From assembly GCA_021166845.1 (NCBI GenBank), contig JAJPEP010000092.1:1-53606 (forward strand): a stretch of 53,606 nucleotides of DNA, read 5' to 3'. Position numbers and translations under genes: made by a program. Under the pieces are notes generated by a model that was not told the DNA's origin, did not search any database, and saw only the letters and a list, made by a program, of their open reading frames with translations. Position 1 is the first letter of the stretch; each line of letters starts with the position of its first letter. Positions 16,689 through 28,517 of this stretch are shown in pieces. The DNA comes from Thiobacillus sp. Lineage in GTDB: Bacteria; Pseudomonadota; Gammaproteobacteria; Burkholderiales; Thiobacillaceae.

Positions 16689-19976
<3,288 letters not shown>

Positions 19977-20094
19977 GGGCCCTTTTTGTTCCGCGTTGAA
20001 GTGCCGGGCGAGTAATGATTATTAAGAATAGGTGCTAATGCGCGTCGTGCTTGAGCGCCGGCGGCAAGCCTTGAACGTGCACGCCGCGAGGGAT

Positions 20095-20389
20095 TGTCGA
20101 CGGTCTGCAGGAAGGGGGACACGGTTTCATGCGGGTCCTTGAGCTTCTTCATGTGGGTAATGTAGCGGCTGGCCTTGGCGCTGAACACGAAGCCGGCGGG
20201 CACCGCGTCGCGCCACTGGTCCACGGTCGCCGCCGCCGGCAAGTGGTAGAAGCTGGTGTTGATCTCCACGCTGGAGAAGCGTCCGACGTAGTGGACGAGC
20301 CTTTTCCCGGCGGCAAGCCCCTCCGGATAGAACGGCCCTTCCCAATGGTCGTAGGACCAGCCCGAGGTGCCGATATGGAGATGGCTCAT
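20095..20389 (-). pseudogene. DUF72-domain protein, N-terminal fragment
   Basis: The frame opens at the ATG at 20389 with MSHLHIGTSGWSYDHWEGPF, the hallmark start of DUF72 (YecE-like) TIM-barrel proteins, and continues SSVEINTSFYHLPAAATVDQW and FVFSAKASRYITHMKKLKDP. After SPFLQTVD (about base 20097) similarity ends and the frame runs on into treS antisense-like residues. Normal proteins are 240-300 aa, so about two thirds are gone. It sits between the treS start and dodecin. Confidence 0.75.
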
Positions 20390-20472: not shown

Positions 20473-20673
20473 ATGTCAGTCGCCAAAATCATCGAAATCA
20501 GTTCCGAATCCACCAGCAGCTTCGAAGACGCCATTAATCAGGGCATCGAGACCGGCGCCAGGACCGTGCGCAACATCCAGGGCGCATGGGTGAAGGAACA
20601 GTCGGTCGTCGTCGAGAGCGGGAAAATCGTGAAATACCGGGTGGTCCTCAAGGTCACGTTCGTCCTCGACTGA
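20473..20673 (+). CDS. Dodecin flavoprotein
   Basis: This 66-aa protein starts at an ATG behind GAGGAGGACACC. The sequence MSVAKIIEISSEST...FEDAINQGIETGARTVRNIQ and WVKEQSVVVESGKIVKYRVV matches dodecins over its whole length. Dodecins form hollow dodecamers that store riboflavin, FMN or FAD and quench flavin photoreactivity; the tryptophan in GAWVKEQ is the residue that stacks on the flavin. It stands alone between a DUF72 remnant and a convergent CBS gene. Confidence 0.93.
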   Translation: MSVAKIIEISSESTSSFEDAINQGIETGARTVRNIQGAWVKEQSVVVESGKIVKYRVVLKVTFVLD

Positions 20674-21648: not shown

Positions 21649-21726
21649 GTCATCGAGCGCAGCGAAGCAATCCAGAACGCCTGCTTGATCAAATGCACTG
21701 GATTGCTTCGCTGCGCTCGCAATGAC
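21649..21726. repeat. Long REP-like inverted repeat
   Basis: Arms at 21649-21675 and 21698-21726 are complementary over 27 positions apart from a 2-base bulge (AGCGCAGCGAAGCAATCCAG on the left). The loop is about 22 bp. It ends 9 bp before the ATG at 21735. In RNA it would form a very stable hairpin. The type resembles repetitive extragenic palindromes common in proteobacteria. Confidence 0.8.
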
Positions 21727-21734
21727 AAAAATGA

Positions 21735-22520
21735 ATGATTTATCGTCTCCTAAAGAATCGGCAGATGACGAAACCGACCTCGAAGAAATCACCCGGCAGC
21801 CGCATCCAGTCGCCCTTGTGGGCGATTGCGGCCAGCATCCTGTTCGTCGCCGCGGCGCTCGCCCTGATGATCCATTTCGGCGCGCACGAGCAGGTGCTGC
21901 ACCTGCTGCGGTGGTTCGACGCGCAGGGTGCGTGGGCGCCGCTGCTGTTCATCCTGATCATGGCGGCGGTGGTGGTGCTGGTGCTGCCGGGGGTGCTGTT
22001 CACCACCGGCGCAGGGTTTGTGTTCGGCGTCGTGGAAGGGTCCGTCTACGTGGTGACGGGCACGACGTTCGGGGCGACGCTGGCCTTCCTCATCGCACGC
22101 TACCTGTTCGGGCAACGCGCCAGACGGTTCATTATGGCCCGCAGCCGGCTCCGGCTGGTGAGCGACGAACTGACGCCGCACGGCTGGAAGATCGTTCTGC
22201 TGACGCGCCTGATCCCGTTCTTTCCCGGCAAGCTCTCCAACTATTTTTTCGGGCTGACGCCGTTTTCCCTGCGCGGGTACGTCGGCGGCTCGCTGCTGGG
22301 TTTCATTCCCTTTTCGATCCACAACGTGTATCTCGGCTCGATCGCCGCCGATCTCTCCACCCTCGGCGCGCGCAGCGCGGACCGATCGCCGCTGGAATGG
22401 ACCCTTTACGGCGCCGGCTTCGTCGCCGCCGTGCTCGCGGTCGTCATCCTCAGCCGGCTCGCGCGCCGGGCGCTGGCCCGCTATGCGGAACAAGGCGCGA
22501 TCGAGGAGGACGTGCCGTGA
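21735..22520 (+). CDS. TVP38/TMEM64-family (DedA-like) membrane protein
   Basis: The 261-aa product has about six hydrophobic segments. The family core is visible: VLVLPGVLFTTGAGFVFG, TGTTFGATLAFLIARYLFG, the conserved LTRLIPFFPGKLSNYFFGLT segment and a final helix LYGAGFVAAVLAVVILS. Members of the SNARE-associated/VTT superfamily are thought to move or scramble lipids; the substrate here is unknown. Two starts are possible, ATG 21735 and ATG 21765, neither with a strong Shine-Dalgarno; the longer is given. The stop overlaps the next GTG start (GTGA), so it is translationally coupled to the glycosidase-like gene. Confidence 0.85.
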   Translation: MIYRLLKNRQMTKPTSKKSPGSRIQSPLWAIAASILFVAAALALMIHFGAHEQVLHLLRWFDAQGAWAPLLFILIMAAVVVLVLPGVLFTTGAGFVFGVVEGSVYVVTGTTFGATLAFLIARYLFGQRARRFIMARSRLRLVSDELTPHGWKIVLLTRLIPFFPGKLSNYFFGLTPFSLRGYVGGSLLGFIPFSIHNVYLGSIAADLSTLGARSADRSPLEWTLYGAGFVAAVLAVVILSRLARRALARYAEQGAIEEDVP

Positions 22521-24769
22521 GCTGGATGAAATGGCTGCCCTGGCGCTTTGTCGTGCGGTATGCCGCGCGCCGCCAGGGCTTCCTGGACCCCATTGCCCTC
22601 CTGGCGCGGCTGCACAGCTTCGCCCAGCCGTCCGAAGTGGGCGAGCCGATCGAACTGCTGCGCGCCGGCGTGGTGTTCCATGCCCGCGGCCTGATCAACA
22701 GCCGGGTCATCCAGCACAACCTGGACTGGGTCTGGCCCTACTGGATCGAACGCCAGTTCGACCCGCTCGACGTATCCTTCATCCCGCGCGCCTTTTCCAT
22801 CACCCATGTCAATCTCACCCACCGCAACTGGACCGCGGTCGGCTATCCGGATTGCCCGGAACTGCCGATCGTCGATCCGCGCGGGCTGCTGACCCCCCTG
22901 CTCGACGGCTGGTCGCTCGACGGCTGGCTGCTGGCGGAGGACGGGCGCTGCCTGCTGCCCTCGCGGGCCGCCGATTGCCGCCAGCGGCAGGACATGGATG
23001 CCGGCGTTCGCATCACCACCGGAACGGAAACGACCGGGCTGGCGCTGGTCAGCAGCGCCTGGGTCGAGTTTGAATCGGGCGTCCCGGTCTGCAAGCTGAA
23101 TCTGCGGGCGCGGGCCGACAGCGCCGCCTGGCTGGTGCTGGCGCTGCGCCCGGCAAACCCGGAAGGCATCAGCTTCATCCACCGGGTCGGCCTGTCGCCG
23201 GCGCGCGATGCCTGGATCATCGACGACGACCAACGGGTCGAATTCGGCAGCGCCGCCGCGCGGCATCACGTCTCCGATTACCGCCACGGGGATGTGTTCA
23301 TTCATCTGTGGGATCGGGACGATCAGACCGAAGGCACCTGCGGCGTGGGTATGGTCACCGCGGCGGCGCTGTTCCCGGTCAAGGCCGGAGAAGACGCCGA
23401 AATCACCGCGAGCATCCCGCTGCCGGCCACCGGAGCCGACCCCCTCCCCGCTCATGCCTGGGAGTCGGCGCGGCGAGGTCGCTGCACGCTTACCTGTCCG
23501 GAGCCGCGTTACCAGTTCCTCTACGATGCCGCGGTCACCTCGCTGATCCTGCATTCGCCGGATGACGTCTACCCCGGCCCCTACACCTACAAGCGGTTCT
23601 GGTTTCGCGATGCCGCCTTCATCATCCATGCCCTGCTCTGCGCCGGCCTCACGGATCGCGCCGAACGCGCGCTAGCGCGCTTCCCGGCGCGACAGACGAC
23701 GCTCGGGTATTTCCGTTCGCAGGAGGGCGAATGGGACGCCAACGGCGAGGTGCTGTGGATCCTGCAGCGCTTCTTCGCCCTGACCAATCGCCCTCCCGCC
23801 CCCGAATGGCTCGGCCCGATCCGGCGCGGCGCCCGCTGGATCATGCGCAAGCGGCTCAGCGACGATCTGGACGCGCCGCACGCCGGGCTGCTGCCGGCCG
23901 GCTTCAGCGCCGAACACCTGGGGCCCAACGACTATTACTACTGGGACGATTTCTGGGGAATCGCCGGCCTGCGCGCGGCGGCGGCCATGCTGGCGGACAT
24001 GGACCCCGCCCACAGCCGGGAATTCGCGCAGGCCGCCGACGATTTTGCGGCGGCGGTGGAGACCAGCCTGGCCGGCTGCGAAAAACGGCTCGGCCGCCCG
24101 GCCATGCCGGCGTCGCCCTATCGCCGTCTGGATGCCGGCGCCATCGGCTCGCTGGCGTGCGGCTACCCGGTGCAACTCGCTGCGCAGGACGCCCCCCGCC
24201 TGCTCGATTGCGTCGGGTTCCTGCTCGACCGCTGTTTCGTCAAGGGCGCGTTCTACCAGGACATGATCCATTCCGGCCTCAACGCCTACCTCACCCTGCA
24301 CGTCGCCCAGGTGCTGCTGCGCGCCGGCGACCCGCGCCATCTCGAATTGATGGATGCGGTCGCCGCCCTCGCTTCGCCGACCGGCCAGTGGCCGGAGGCG
24401 ATCCATCCGCACACCGGCGGCGGCTGCATGGGCGACGGCCACCATGTCTGGGCCGCCGCCGAGTGGCTGCTGATGATCCGCAACTGCTTCGTGCGCGAGG
24501 AAGGCGAAGGCCTCATCCTGTGCGCGGGAATTCCCGCGCGCTGGCTCGACCAGGCCGCGCCGATCCGCTTCGGCCCCGCGCCGACCACATTTGGAACGGT
24601 ATCGATCGGCATCACGCCGGTTCCCGGCAATCCGCCGCGCGTCGAATGGCAGGCCGACTGGCATCGCAGCGCGCCGCCGATCGAGGTCCGCCTGCCCGGT
24701 TACGCGCCGGTCACCCCGCAAGCCGGCGCCGGCTCGGTGGTTCTCGTCAGACGGGATGCGAGCGCATGA
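22517..24769 (+). CDS. Six-hairpin glycosidase-like protein
   Basis: The 750-aa product starts at a GTG behind GAGGAGGA, overlapping the previous stop. The N-terminal half looks beta-rich. The C-terminal half from about residue 330 has the look of an (alpha/alpha)6 barrel as in glucoamylase or debranching-type enzymes: YTYKRFWFRDAAFIIHALL, GYFRSQEGEWDANGEVLWIL, DYYYWDDFWGIAGLRAA and WPEAIHPHTGGGCMGDGHH. Candidate acids are the Asp in WFRDA, the Glu in EGEWD and the Glu in WPEA. No signal peptide is visible, so it is probably cytoplasmic. I cannot place it in a named GH family. Its stop overlaps the glycosyltransferase start, suggesting both act on one glycan. Confidence 0.65.
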   Translation: MSWMKWLPWRFVVRYAARRQGFLDPIALLARLHSFAQPSEVGEPIELLRAGVVFHARGLINSRVIQHNLDWVWPYWIERQFDPLDVSFIPRAFSITHVNLTHRNWTAVGYPDCPELPIVDPRGLLTPLLDGWSLDGWLLAEDGRCLLPSRAADCRQRQDMDAGVRITTGTETTGLALVSSAWVEFESGVPVCKLNLRARADSAAWLVLALRPANPEGISFIHRVGLSPARDAWIIDDDQRVEFGSAAARHHVSDYRHGDVFIHLWDRDDQTEGTCGVGMVTAAALFPVKAGEDAEITASIPLPATGADPLPAHAWESARRGRCTLTCPEPRYQFLYDAAVTSLILHSPDDVYPGPYTYKRFWFRDAAFIIHALLCAGLTDRAERALARFPARQTTLGYFRSQEGEWDANGEVLWILQRFFALTNRPPAPEWLGPIRRGARWIMRKRLSDDLDAPHAGLLPAGFSAEHLGPNDYYYWDDFWGIAGLRAAAAMLADMDPAHSREFAQAADDFAAAVETSLAGCEKRLGRPAMPASPYRRLDAGAIGSLACGYPVQLAAQDAPRLLDCVGFLLDRCFVKGAFYQDMIHSGLNAYLTLHVAQVLLRAGDPRHLELMDAVAALASPTGQWPEAIHPHTGGGCMGDGHHVWAAAEWLLMIRNCFVREEGEGLILCAGIPARWLDQAAPIRFGPAPTTFGTVSIGITPVPGNPPRVEWQADWHRSAPPIEVRLPGYAPVTPQAGAGSVVLVRRDASA

Positions 24770-26052
24770 ACATCCTCATCCTCACCAACACCTTCACCCC
24801 GCATGTCGGCGGGGTGGCGCGCTCGGTGGCGGCATTCACCGAGGAATACCGCACGCGCGGGCACCGGGTGCTGGTGGTGGCGCCCGAGTTTCCCGACATG
24901 CCGCGGGACGAGATCGACGTGGTGCGCATTCCCGCGATCCAGAATTTCAACGCCAGCGACTTCTCGGTGGTGCTGCCGATCCACCCGCCGTTGTCCGACA
25001 CGCTCGATGCCTTCCGCCCCGACATCGTGCACTCCCAGCACCCCTTCCTGCTCGGCATGACCGCGGTGCGGATCGCGCGCCGCCGGGGCCTGCCGCTGGT
25101 GTTCACCCACCACACCCTGTATGAGCGCTACACCCACTATGTTCCCGGCGACTCCCCCGCGCTGAAGCGCTTTACGATCGAACTCGCCACTCGCTACGCC
25201 AACCTCGCCGATCAGGTGTTCGCACCCAGCGAGAGCATCCGCGACCTGCTGCTGCAGCGCGGGGTCGTCACGCCGATTGCGGTGGTGCCCACCGGGGTTC
25301 GGCTGGAACACTTCGCGCACGGCGACGGTCCCGCCTTTCGACGGCAGATGGGGATTCCGGCGGACGCCTTCGTGGTCGGTCACCTGGGCCGCCTGGCGCC
25401 GGAAAAGAACCTGGAATTCCTGGCGCAGGCGGTCGCCGACTTTGTCGGCAGTCACCCGCGCGCGCATTTTCTGGTGATCGGCAGCGGCCCCTCCGAAACC
25501 GCCATGCGCGACGTGTTTTCCCGGGCCGGACTCGAAGCGCGGCTGCATGTCGGCGGCATCCTGAAACAGCAGGAACTGGCCGACGCCCTGCACGCCATGG
25601 ACCTGTTCGCCTTCGCGTCGACCAGCGAGACGCAGGGCATGGTGCTGACCGAAGCCATGGCGGCCGGCCTGCCGGTCGTCGCCCTGGATGCGTCCGGCGT
25701 CCGGGAAGTGGTGCGGGACCGGCATAACGGCCGCCTGCTGCGCGAGACGACGTCCGCGGCATTCAGCGCCGCCCTGCAGTGGGTGGCCGCGCTGCCTGCC
25801 GAATCCTTGCGCGACCTGAAACAGGCCGCACTCGAAACCGCCGGGGCCTTTTCCATGCCCCGCTCGGCGGACAAGGCCCTGGCCTGCTACGAAGCGCTCA
25901 AACCTGGAAAAACCGGCGGCTCGGGTGAGGACGTGAGCGCCTGGGAAGAGGTCATGACCGCGATCAGGACGGAGTGGGACATTCTGAAAAGCGTGGCCGG
26001 CGCGGGCGATGCGGCCCTCGGCGCCGGCCTGTTTTCCGACAAGGAAGACTGA
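24766..26052 (+). CDS. GT4-family glycosyltransferase
   Basis: The 428-aa GT-B enzyme starts at an ATG overlapping the previous stop (ATGA). The N-terminal acceptor domain begins MNILILTNTFTPHVGGVARS and includes HSQHPFLLG and FTHHTLYERYTHYVP. The C-terminal nucleotide-sugar domain has HLGRLAPEKNLEFL, FLVIGSGP and the EX7E motif SETQGMVLTEAMAAGLPVVA. The HHTxYExY pattern is like diacylglycerol/phosphatidylinositol sugar transferases, which suggests a lipid acceptor, but this is inference. The last ~40 residues are a charged extension. The next gene starts 32 bp on. Confidence 0.88.
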   Translation: MNILILTNTFTPHVGGVARSVAAFTEEYRTRGHRVLVVAPEFPDMPRDEIDVVRIPAIQNFNASDFSVVLPIHPPLSDTLDAFRPDIVHSQHPFLLGMTAVRIARRRGLPLVFTHHTLYERYTHYVPGDSPALKRFTIELATRYANLADQVFAPSESIRDLLLQRGVVTPIAVVPTGVRLEHFAHGDGPAFRRQMGIPADAFVVGHLGRLAPEKNLEFLAQAVADFVGSHPRAHFLVIGSGPSETAMRDVFSRAGLEARLHVGGILKQQELADALHAMDLFAFASTSETQGMVLTEAMAAGLPVVALDASGVREVVRDRHNGRLLRETTSAAFSAALQWVAALPAESLRDLKQAALETAGAFSMPRSADKALACYEALKPGKTGGSGEDVSAWEEVMTAIRTEWDILKSVAGAGDAALGAGLFSDKED

Positions 26053-26084
26053 TGCGTTCGGGTTTGAGTGCGGGCGGATAGCCG

Positions 26085-28517
26085 ATGCTCAGCCGAATCG
26101 AGACTCTTTTCCGGCGCCTGCGCCGCAGCCTCAGCCGCAGCGTCTGGCTGGCGCGTCTGCTGCGCCTGCCCGTGTCGGAAGGATCGCCGACACGGCCGGG
26201 GCTGATCATGATCCAGATCGACGGACTTTCGCACCCGCAGTTCGAGCGCGCCCTGAAACGCGGCGAACTGCCGTTCCTGCGGCGGCTGCTCAGGCGCGAG
26301 CACTATCGGTTGCATGACCACTATTCTGGCCTGCCGTCGACGACGCCCGCGGTCCAGGCCGAACTCTTCTATGGCGTCAAAGGCGCCGTCCCGGCATTCT
26401 CCTTCAGGGACCGCGAATCGCGCCGGATCGTGCGCATGTACGAACCGGACACGGCGGCGCGCATCGAGGCGCTGCACGCGGGCAACGGCAACGAGGCGCT
26501 GCTCAAGGACGGCAGCGCCTACTCGGACAACTACACCGGCGGCGCCGCGGAATCGCATTTCTGTCCCTCGTCGATGGGGTGGGGGCCGACGTTTCGTGCG
26601 GCCAATCCGCTGGTGCTGCTGGCGTTCCTGCTCAGCAACTTCTACAGTTTCCTGCGCGTCGCCGTGCTGTTGGTGATGGAGCTGGGGCTGGCGCTGCACG
26701 ATTTTGTGCGCGGCCTGGTCGCGGGGCAGGATTTCTTCAAGGAACTGAAATTCGTTCCCACCCGGGCCGCCATCTCCATCCTGCTGCGCGAGCTCTGCGT
26801 CATCGGCGGCAAGATCGATATCAGCCGCGGCCTGCCCGTCATCCACATCAACTTCCTCGGTTACGACGAGCAGTCGCACCGCCGCGGCCCGCGCTCGCTG
26901 TTTGCCCACTGGACGCTGAAGGGGATCGACGACGCCGTCGCCCGCCTGTGGCGCGCCGCCAGCCATTCGGCATGGCGGCACTACGAAGTCTGGGTCTATT
27001 CCGACCACGGGCAGGCCGCCGTCCGGTCCTATCCGCAGGTCCAGGGCTATAGCCTGGAGGATGCGGTGACGGCGGCGTTCGAGAAACTGGGCGCCACGGG
27101 GCTGAATGTTCGCACCCAAAACGCGGGGGGCATCCAGACGCAGCGGGTTCGCTTTCTGGGCGGACGGAAGCTTCAGCGCCTGTTTTCGGTGCTCGGCATC
27201 AATGGCGAGGAAGCGGACGAGCAGCACCCGCTCGTCGCCGCCCTCGGCCCGGTGGGCCATGTCTATTTGCCGCATGACATGGACGGCGACGCGCGCGATT
27301 CTGTCGCCCGCGAGCTGGCGCGCACGCACAAGGTTCCGCTCGTGCTCAGCGTGACGGCTCCGGGCACGCTGTGCGCCCGCACCGATGCCGGCGAATTCCG
27401 TTTGCCGCGGGACCGCGCCGCGCTATTTGGCGCACAGCATCCGTTTCTCGATTCAATCGGCGAGGACCTGGTGCGCCTGTGCGAGCATGCGGAGGCCGGC
27501 GACCTCGTCCTGCTCGGCTGGCGCGACGGCGTGGCGCCGATGAGCTTTGCCATGGAGAACGGCGCGCACGCCGGCGCCTCGCCGGAAGAAACCCACGGCT
27601 TCGCCCTGCTTCCCGCGGACACGCCGCTGGCGGCACGCGAACATGAGTATCTGCGGCCGATCGACCTGCGCAACGCGGCGCTGCGACACCTGGGGCGCCC
27701 CGGGCAGCAGCCCCGCCGTGCCGGCAAACGGGTTGCCGCGGCGCGGACGGACACCCTTCGCGTCATGACCTACAACGTGCACGGCTGCGTCGGCATGGAC
27801 GGCAAGCTCGATGCCGAGCGCATCGCCCGCGTGATCGCCCGCGCCCGGCCAGACGTGGTGGCGCTGCAGGAACTGGACGTGGGCCGTCCGCGCAGCCTGG
27901 GCATGGATCAGGCGCACCGGATCGCCCGTTACCTGGAGATGGAATTCCACTTTCACCCGGCCATGCACCTGGAGGAAGAACGCTACGGGGATGCCATCCT
28001 GACGCACCTGCCGCAGCGCCTGGTCAAGGCCGGTCCACTGCCCGGGCTCGCCGGCAAGCCTCGCCTCGAACCGCGCGGCGCACTCTGGGTTGCCGTCGAC
28101 CTGCACGGCAGGGAAATTCAGGTCATCAACACCCATCTGGGCCTCTACCCGCGCGAACGCATCGCGCAGGCCGCGGCCCTGCTCGGCAGCGACTGGCTGG
28201 CGCACGAACAGTGCCGGGAACCGGTGATCCTGTGCGGCGACTTCAACGCATTGCCGTCATCGGCGGTGTGCCGCCGGCTCGGTAGTCCGCTCAGGGATGC
28301 TCAAGCCGAGGCGAAACACCACCGCCCCCAGGCCACCTTTTCCAGCCGCCTTCCGCGCATGCGCATCGACCACATCTTCATCAGCCCCGGACTTGAAGTG
28401 CGCGGCATCGAGGTTCCCCATTCCGAACTGGCGCGCGTCGCCTCCGACCACCTGCCCCTGATTGCGGAGATACGCCTTCCCGGACATGTGCCTTCGGCCG
28501 CAAACAGGGCGGGATGA
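26085..28517 (+). CDS. Alkaline phosphatase-superfamily phosphodiesterase fused to an EEP-family hydrolase
   Basis: The 810-aa product joins two hydrolases. Residues ~35-530 form a type I phosphodiesterase/nucleotide pyrophosphatase fold: metal site MIQIDGL, nucleophile GLPSTTPAVQ, then INFLGYDEQSH and WVYSDHGQA. Within it a hydrophobic region (about residues 170-205, LVLLAFLLSNFYSFLRVAVL) may insert into the membrane. Residues ~560-805 form an endonuclease/exonuclease/phosphatase domain with all motifs: TYNVHG, LQELDVG, VINTHLGLYPRER, CGDFNALP, RIDHIFIS and SDHLPLIAEI. EEP enzymes cut phosphodiesters in lipids, inositol phosphates or nucleic acids. Two phosphodiesterases in one chain beside a lipid-type glycosyltransferase suggest headgroup processing; substrate unknown. 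Confidence 0.85.
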   Translation: MLSRIETLFRRLRRSLSRSVWLARLLRLPVSEGSPTRPGLIMIQIDGLSHPQFERALKRGELPFLRRLLRREHYRLHDHYSGLPSTTPAVQAELFYGVKGAVPAFSFRDRESRRIVRMYEPDTAARIEALHAGNGNEALLKDGSAYSDNYTGGAAESHFCPSSMGWGPTFRAANPLVLLAFLLSNFYSFLRVAVLLVMELGLALHDFVRGLVAGQDFFKELKFVPTRAAISILLRELCVIGGKIDISRGLPVIHINFLGYDEQSHRRGPRSLFAHWTLKGIDDAVARLWRAASHSAWRHYEVWVYSDHGQAAVRSYPQVQGYSLEDAVTAAFEKLGATGLNVRTQNAGGIQTQRVRFLGGRKLQRLFSVLGINGEEADEQHPLVAALGPVGHVYLPHDMDGDARDSVARELARTHKVPLVLSVTAPGTLCARTDAGEFRLPRDRAALFGAQHPFLDSIGEDLVRLCEHAEAGDLVLLGWRDGVAPMSFAMENGAHAGASPEETHGFALLPADTPLAAREHEYLRPIDLRNAALRHLGRPGQQPRRAGKRVAAARTDTLRVMTYNVHGCVGMDGKLDAERIARVIARARPDVVALQELDVGRPRSLGMDQAHRIARYLEMEFHFHPAMHLEEERYGDAILTHLPQRLVKAGPLPGLAGKPRLEPRGALWVAVDLHGREIQVINTHLGLYPRERIAQAAALLGSDWLAHEQCREPVILCGDFNALPSSAVCRRLGSPLRDAQAEAKHHRPQATFSSRLPRMRIDHIFISPGLEVRGIEVPHSELARVASDHLPLIAEIRLPGHVPSAANRAG

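Follow-up and report, generated by a model that had tools for sequence, protein, structure and literature searches.

The window analysed here, a stretch of 53,606 nucleotides that makes up one whole contig (JAJPEP010000092.1) of the 3.2-Mb draft genome of a Thiobacillus species (GCA_021166845.1), contains four adjoining genes encoding a TVP38-type membrane protein, a glycosidase-like protein that belongs to no named family (here GHX), a GT4 glycosyltransferase, and a protein in which a phosphodiesterase (PDE) half is joined to an endonuclease/exonuclease/phosphatase (EEP) half. The four genes form a cassette that is conserved in distant bacteria. Tentatively, and with somewhat less than even confidence, we hypothesize that this cassette remodels inner-membrane lipids with glucose-bearing headgroups. 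The hypothesis draws on the conserved adjacency of the genes and the co-occurrence of GT4 and PDE-EEP, the glycosyltransferase model that ranks first for GT4, the glucosidase-like predicted fold and profile of GHX, the PLD-type genes found beside relatives of the EEP half, a published argument for scramblase activity in COG0398 proteins, the amphipathic N-terminus of the PDE half, and the presence of a fused GT4 in every GHX-bearing Marinobacter genome.

Conservation of the four-gene unit

A preliminary description, made from the sequence of the window, had taken the four genes for a single unit. The stop/start overlaps that it cited can be read off the sequence (GTGA at 22517-22520 for TVP38/GHX; ATGA at 24766-24769 for GHX/GT4), the 32-base gap before the fourth gene is confirmed at 26053-26084, and the gene order is kept elsewhere, so that the four genes are indeed one unit. 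The same description was right about the acceptor motif of GT4, which reads FTHHTLYERYTHYVP, about the two phosphodiesterase domains of the fourth protein (Pfam PF01663 and PF03372), and about the glycosidase-like nature of GHX and its want of a named family. It had also allowed that the order might be unique to this strain, or that each gene might have another partner in related genomes; the conservation of the order described below shows that this is not so.

One genome per species was scanned with a 15-row alignment of GHX, which yielded 299 confirmed loci, and the best 80 (62-94% identity) were kept; being the closest relatives of the window's GHX, these 80 are a biased sample, and the locus counts that follow refer to them. 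The loci nearest to the window's GHX are titled Thiobacillus or Hydrogenophilales. TVP38 lies directly upstream of GHX in 71 of 76 testable loci, GT4 lies downstream in 49 of 77, and a same-strand PDE accompanies GT4 in 40 of the 46 GT4-positive loci that could be tested, against 0 of 28 GT4-negative ones; together these frequencies argue that the association is not due to chance. All four genes are found in 39 loci (hosts include Thiobacillus, Rheinheimera, Arsukibacterium, Haliea, Methylobacter, Desulfuromonadales and Desulfobacterales), and the order TVP38-GHX-GT4-PDE-EEP recurs in Pseudomonadota, Desulfuromonadales and Desulfobacterales. Variant arrangements comprise a Nitrospinaceae locus (L078) with PDE-EEP before TVP38, a Riflebacteria metagenome-assembled genome (MAG; L016) with GHX, GT4 and PDE-EEP and no TVP38, a locus (L017) whose PDE lacks the EEP half and has a distant EEP (35%) upstream, and Thiohalobacter, in which GHX-GT4 and PDE-EEP stand far apart and both are kept. 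At one locus (L009; 3-548 and 10001-12250) about 9.4 kb separate GHX from the TVP38 match upstream of it, and the two do not adjoin. All the cassette genes, 58-73% identical to those of the window, are found on a contig titled Halobacteria archaeon (L083), which is probably mis-binned.

Co-occurrence extends to whole genomes. Of 56 genomes in the genus of the window, 8 have a full-length PDE-EEP, and the same 8 have a close GT4; two more match the EEP half only. GHX is present in 5 of the 36 genus genomes searched for it, exactly those among the 36 that are positive for PDE and GT4. Among 398 Pseudomonadota genomes, searched with a first-look filter before scoring so that misses are possible, 5 have a full-length GHX, and the 3 with a full-length PDE-EEP are all GHX-positive. 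PDE-EEP is absent from 10 of 12 GHX-positive genomes tested, a set chosen mostly for loci without PDE-EEP. The genetic distances of the cassette genes agree across 39 loci (Mantel r 0.65-0.92), which fits co-inheritance and is not proof of it, since vertical descent alone would give the same agreement.

Clustering of neighbouring open reading frames around the 80 loci, with cassette genes and antisense shadow frames set aside, revealed no further family fixed across clades. A GGDEF family was the commonest, present at 25 of the 80 loci on either strand and without a fixed position. It is taken as background, and so are the lineage-specific families that come next, for example two neighbours in Marinobacter named by eye, an EamA-type transporter in 17 loci and a lipid-kinase-like gene in 14.

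Predicted activities of the encoded proteins

GHX matches no Pfam, NCBIfam or PHROG model; at E<=0.01 neither it nor two relatives (L107 and L006) has a Pfam match, the GH15 model PF00723 included. It belongs nonetheless to a highly conserved and widespread family with thousands of members: at least 4664 homologues were found at E<=0.001, and relatives in MAGs labelled Planctomycetota, Lentisphaeria and Riflebacteria are 75-80% identical to it. Nearly all are named hypothetical protein in the databases, apart from a UniRef glucoamylase (P0215) and a discoidin domain protein (P0186). The discoidin-domain proteins at four further loci (L108-L111, in another class of the phylum) carry a GHX-like six-hairpin domain; in a Pfam run on L108 no glycosidase match exceeded the cut-off. 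A sequence search of the PDB with GHX alone gave one match, at the chance level (E 0.39), and no solved relative at E<=0.001. The AlphaFold2 model (pLDDT 85.6, pTM 0.87) predicts a conserved N-terminal extension (about residues 1-100), a beta-sandwich (about 130-300), an (alpha/alpha)6 barrel (about 330-660) and a C-terminal beta part; its fold matches are of the GH15 type, and hhalign aligns the profile to GH15 at 98.2%. GHX is thus GH15-like in predicted fold and in profile. A model built from 15 sequences was discarded (pLDDT 57.5).

The candidate catalytic residues of GHX, D477 and E627, are invariant in 132 sequences. In the hhalign alignment E627, flanked by the predicted helices 607-618 and 644-658 (counted as alpha11 and alpha12), takes the position of the PEQ Glu, the general base of GH15. 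For the acid, HMMER pairs W476-D477-D478 with the WED of dextran dextrinase (the Glu of IWEDMYG) in a weak match (E 0.021), and hhalign leaves the acid site in the GH15 alpha5-alpha6 loop unaligned; the invariant E466 is an alternative candidate. GHX differs in several respects from the GH15 hydrolases and dextran dextrinase (PMC12446779): identity to them is low (12-16%), PF00723 does not match, the likely acid position holds Asp and not Glu, an N-terminal extension of 100 residues is conserved, and the operon partners are of lipid type.

Among NCBIfam models, NF049988 (alpha-monoglucosyl-diacylglycerol synthase) scores highest with GT4, and it also ranks first for a GT4 relative (L107; 167.2 bits, under the cut-off). 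The EX7E pair (E288, E296), R209 and K214, which we take to be its catalytic and donor residues, are invariant in 15 sequences and common to other GT4 families.

TVP38 shows four peaks in its hydropathy profile; no hydrophobic N-terminal segment appears in the profiles of GHX, GT4 or PDE. Against the UptA-type undecaprenyl phosphate transporter model NF052604 it scores 18.2 bits (cut-off 250), and comparison by eye with PMC10127716 finds no acidic residue in its LPGVLFTTGAG motif and a single Arg around TRLIPFFPGK. The same paper argues that COG0398 DedA proteins are phospholipid scramblases, a subfamily that TVP38 resembles in having a VTT domain without the features of undecaprenyl phosphate flipping; TVP38 reads as a putative scramblase-type, COG0398-like DedA protein, assigned by eye. 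What sets it apart from the subfamily at large is that it is the usual partner of GHX.

The active sites of both PDE-EEP halves are complete. The best PF01663 stretch covers residues 254-327 and PF03372 covers 561-789; D46, T87, D261, H265, D307, H308 and H495, presumably the two-metal ligands and Thr/Ser nucleophile typical of the alkaline phosphatase superfamily, are invariant in 14 sequences, as are N564, E596, H684, D719, N721, D788 and H789, the presumed catalytic residues of an EEP enzyme. The EEP half also matches, weakly and under the cut-off, a PGAP2IP nuclease-like model. The N-terminus of the PDE half is basic and strongly amphipathic (99.9th percentile of amphipathic moment within its own protein), and a hydrophobic insert lies near residues 176-213.

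The free-standing EEPs closest to that of the cassette come from 14 genomes of other classes of the phylum, perhaps alphaproteobacteria (279-342 bits, the next best scoring 156), and 12 of their loci were examined (L140-L151). A PLD-type gene lies within 1.3 kb in 11 of the 12, and an MprF-TM-like gene is nearby in five, including the sole locus without PLD. The PLD domains are Pfam-confirmed in five; ClsB and MprF models match under their cut-offs (ClsB 28.5 and 35.8 bits on the PLD proteins, cut-off 281). This arrangement is similar to the ybhN-clsB-ybhP order of E. coli, in which an EEP gene neighbours a PLD-type cardiolipin synthase gene. The EEP of such loci is free-standing; in the cassette it is joined to PDE in one protein and linked with GT4 and GHX. 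At a locus with a less close EEP (L152) the row is PLD-like, VTT (a 29.6% match) and EEP, the VTT gene standing in the middle.

Marinobacter and some neighbours keep TVP38-GHX only. In seven of eight such genomes tested a GT4 (32-35% identical) is found within a frame of 750-826 residues, and in the four sequences read (L095, L097, L098 and L101) it makes up the C-terminal half, preceded by parts that are transmembrane and metallophosphoesterase-like; the one fusion run against Pfam (L095) matches Metallophos at E 0.0011 and 19.9 bits, under the cut-off of 21.5. The eighth genome, M. similis (G534), has no GT4 match at 1e-40, its copy appearing split between frames. Among 100 Marinobacter genomes, the fusion protein is present in 84 (split or cut in three, G515, G531 and G534) and GHX in 39, all of them fusion-positive (39 of 39, versus 84 of 100 overall; hypergeometric 1.5e-4, uncorrected for relatedness). 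NF049988 ranks first, under its cut-off, for the fused GT4. One genome (G491) has an additional GT4 directly behind GHX. PlcP, of the PlcP-Agt pathway discussed below, is a metallophosphoesterase, and the Marinobacter fusion looks like a one-chain counterpart of PlcP-Agt.

Glucolipid remodelling and alternative functions

From these data we infer the substrates, the direction of the reactions, the side of the membrane and the order of steps as follows. PDE-EEP, at the cytoplasmic face, would cut phosphodiester headgroups from phospholipids to leave diacylglycerol or a similar acceptor, which GT4 would glucosylate from a nucleotide sugar, probably with an alpha linkage. GHX, as a GH15-like alpha-glucosidase or transglucosylase, may then remove, transfer or limit glucose and so allow the exchange to run in reverse or control how long the headgroup becomes, and TVP38 as a scramblase would equilibrate the lipids between leaflets. 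The role of GHX (to trim, to transfer or to reverse) is the weakest step of this mechanism. As for the preliminary description, which had proposed a lipid-linked glucan or glycolipid, its lipid and glycolipid theme stands and the proposal as a whole is partly supported.

The closest described pathway, to which the proposed one is analogous, is PlcP-Agt, the lipid renovation system of Pseudomonas aeruginosa (PA3219/PA3218). There the genes for a phospholipid phosphodiesterase and a diacylglycerol glycosyltransferase adjoin, phospholipid is exchanged for glucolipid, and the promoter has a Pho box (PMC8528852). In the cassette a gene of putative phosphodiesterase activity adjoins GT4, but it is not of the PlcP type: its phosphodiesterases are of the alkaline-phosphatase and EEP types, and the cassette adds the glycosidase-like GHX and a VTT protein, with no Pho box found in its upstream regions. 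No operon with this gene set was found in the open-access PMC literature (titles and starts of abstracts), a weak absence that covers open-access papers only.

Several observations weigh against glucolipid remodelling. We know of no precedent for a cytosolic glycosidase that acts on a glucolipid, and the N-terminus of GHX is only modestly amphipathic (92nd percentile). GT4 falls far under the equivalog cut-off of NF049988 (138.9 vs 400 bits). All 8 GT4-negative genomes tested lack any PDE-EEP, and 6 of 46 testable GT4-positive loci have no nearby PDE, so PDE is dispensable. Forty-five Marinobacter genomes hold the metallophosphoesterase-GT4 fusion without GHX, so the fusion is not a dedicated partner of GHX. 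The less close EEP at L152 also has a PLD-type neighbour, so that the EEP-PLD link is not peculiar to the cassette type. The cassette occurs in MAGs of sulfate and sulfur reducers, although many anaerobic groups are said to lack COG0398 proteins (PMC10127716). Finally, 69 upstream regions show no Pho-box enrichment, their best scores equalling those of random segments; that of the window reaches 8 of 14 positions.

This last result also counts against the view that the cassette, under PhoB control, stands in for PlcP-Agt in phosphate starvation proper, a view favoured by the logic that it shares with PlcP-Agt (PMC8528852). Thiohalobacter, moreover, keeps the cassette genes together with a metallophosphoesterase/GT4 pair read as PlcP-Agt-like (L102; its GT4 ranks NF049988 second), so that one does not simply take the place of the other, and we assign this view a low probability. 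Control of undecaprenyl-linked glycans, in which GT4 would build sugar on undecaprenyl phosphate, GHX and PDE-EEP would strip dead-end products and TVP38 would recycle the carrier, suits a GT4 found with hydrolases, and some bacterial DedA proteins do flip undecaprenyl phosphate (PMC10127716); yet TVP38 scores 18.2 of 250 bits as UptA and by eye is missing the acidic tip, as well as one basic residue, that go with flipping, and no polysaccharide-type family, judged by eye, recurs across clades beside the 80 loci, which makes this function quite unlikely.

Cytosolic alpha-glucan or trehalose metabolism, with GHX as a GH15-type glucoamylase or trehalase or a GH65/GH94-like phosphorylase, GT4 as a glucan synthase and the rest accessory, would accommodate the predicted GHX fold; the trehalose neighbours are not conserved, the genes that do stay with GHX encode a lipid-type membrane protein and phosphodiesterases, and the genome holds two ordinary GH15 proteins elsewhere, so we rate this as quite unlikely too. 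The least probable of the alternatives is the editing of envelope oligosaccharides or of sphingolipid/GPI-like glycans, with an acceptor other than diacylglycerol. The weak PGAP2IP match of the EEP half, PGAP2IP being a nuclease-like domain of lipid remodelling, speaks for it, as does the inclusion of phosphoethanolamine transferases in the alkaline-phosphatase superfamily, but by eye no sphingolipid or lipid A gene family is prominent near the 80 loci.

If the cassette does remodel glucolipids, such membrane remodelling extends beyond the PlcP-Agt route of phosphate starvation, and a specific lipid job is found for a DedA scramblase; the fixed partners of GHX in turn offer a concrete assay for an unnamed family. 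A bolder version, rather unlikely in our judgement, would have GHX found a new glycoside hydrolase family acting on membrane glucolipids from the cytosolic side and forming, with GT4, PDE-EEP and a dedicated scramblase, a reversible phospholipid-to-glucolipid cycle that is independent of PlcP and the phosphate regulon, spans several phyla, and is partly replaced in Marinobacter by the one-chain metallophosphoesterase-GT4 fusion.

Features and surroundings of the unit

Table 1. Features of the four-gene unit (positions in the window)
Feature	Position	Strand	Evidence
TVP38/VTT (DedA superfamily) membrane protein, putative COG0398-type lipid scramblase	21735..22520	+	PF09335 80.9 bits; 261 aa
GHX, unnamed (alpha/alpha)6 glycosidase-like protein, 750 aa	22517..24769	+	predicted fold; no family-library match
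GHX Asp477 codon, candidate general acid, in YWDDFWG	23945..23947	+	invariant, 132 sequences; weak HMMER alignment
GHX Glu627 codon, candidate general base, in GQWPEAIHP	24395..24397	+	invariant, 132 sequences; hhalign to GH15
GT4 glycosyltransferase, 428 aa, nearest alpha-monoglucosyl-diacylglycerol synthase	24766..26052	+	PF13439, PF00534; NF049988
PDE-EEP whole gene, double phosphodiesterase	26085-28517	+	PF01663, PF03372
PDE half: alkaline-phosphatase-superfamily, type I phosphodiesterase-like	26085..27674	+	PF01663 39.1 bits; domain limits approximate
EEP half: endonuclease/exonuclease/phosphatase	27756..28469	+	PF03372 93.4 bits

The start of TVP38 is ambiguous, 21735 and Met11 at 21765 (251 aa) being equally likely. 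Outside the unit lie a dodecin gene (20479-20670) and, on the minus strand, a TreS-like gene (16689-19976) with a GH77/amylase frame beyond it. The preliminary description rightly placed trehalose genes and dodecin next to the unit, but the stress use that it drew from the trehalose neighbours is not supported, as this context is not conserved: no TreS-like match of >=120 bits occurs in the flanks (up to 10 kb) of the 80 GHX loci. In a search that left dodecin out, close copies of CBS, DUF72, apgM and rpoS were found only in two Thiobacillus loci (L007 and L081), with a distant CBS match (30-31%) in two further loci. The TreS-like protein has 1095 aa, and its long C-terminal half, read by eye, resembles a fused maltokinase. 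The DUF72 gene (19871-20389, minus strand) is probably truncated, since only 76 of 217 profile positions are covered and its tail extends into the TreS start.

A scan for sigma-70 promoters found none, and six terminator-like matches are close to the number in shuffled sequence (mean 4.7). A perfect 22-nt inverted repeat (21654-21719; arms 21654-21675 and 21698-21719) lies just before the TVP38 start; it resembles the common REP-type element GTCATTGCGAGC..GCAATCC, and the right half of the repeat occurs once in the window when up to 3 mismatches are allowed.

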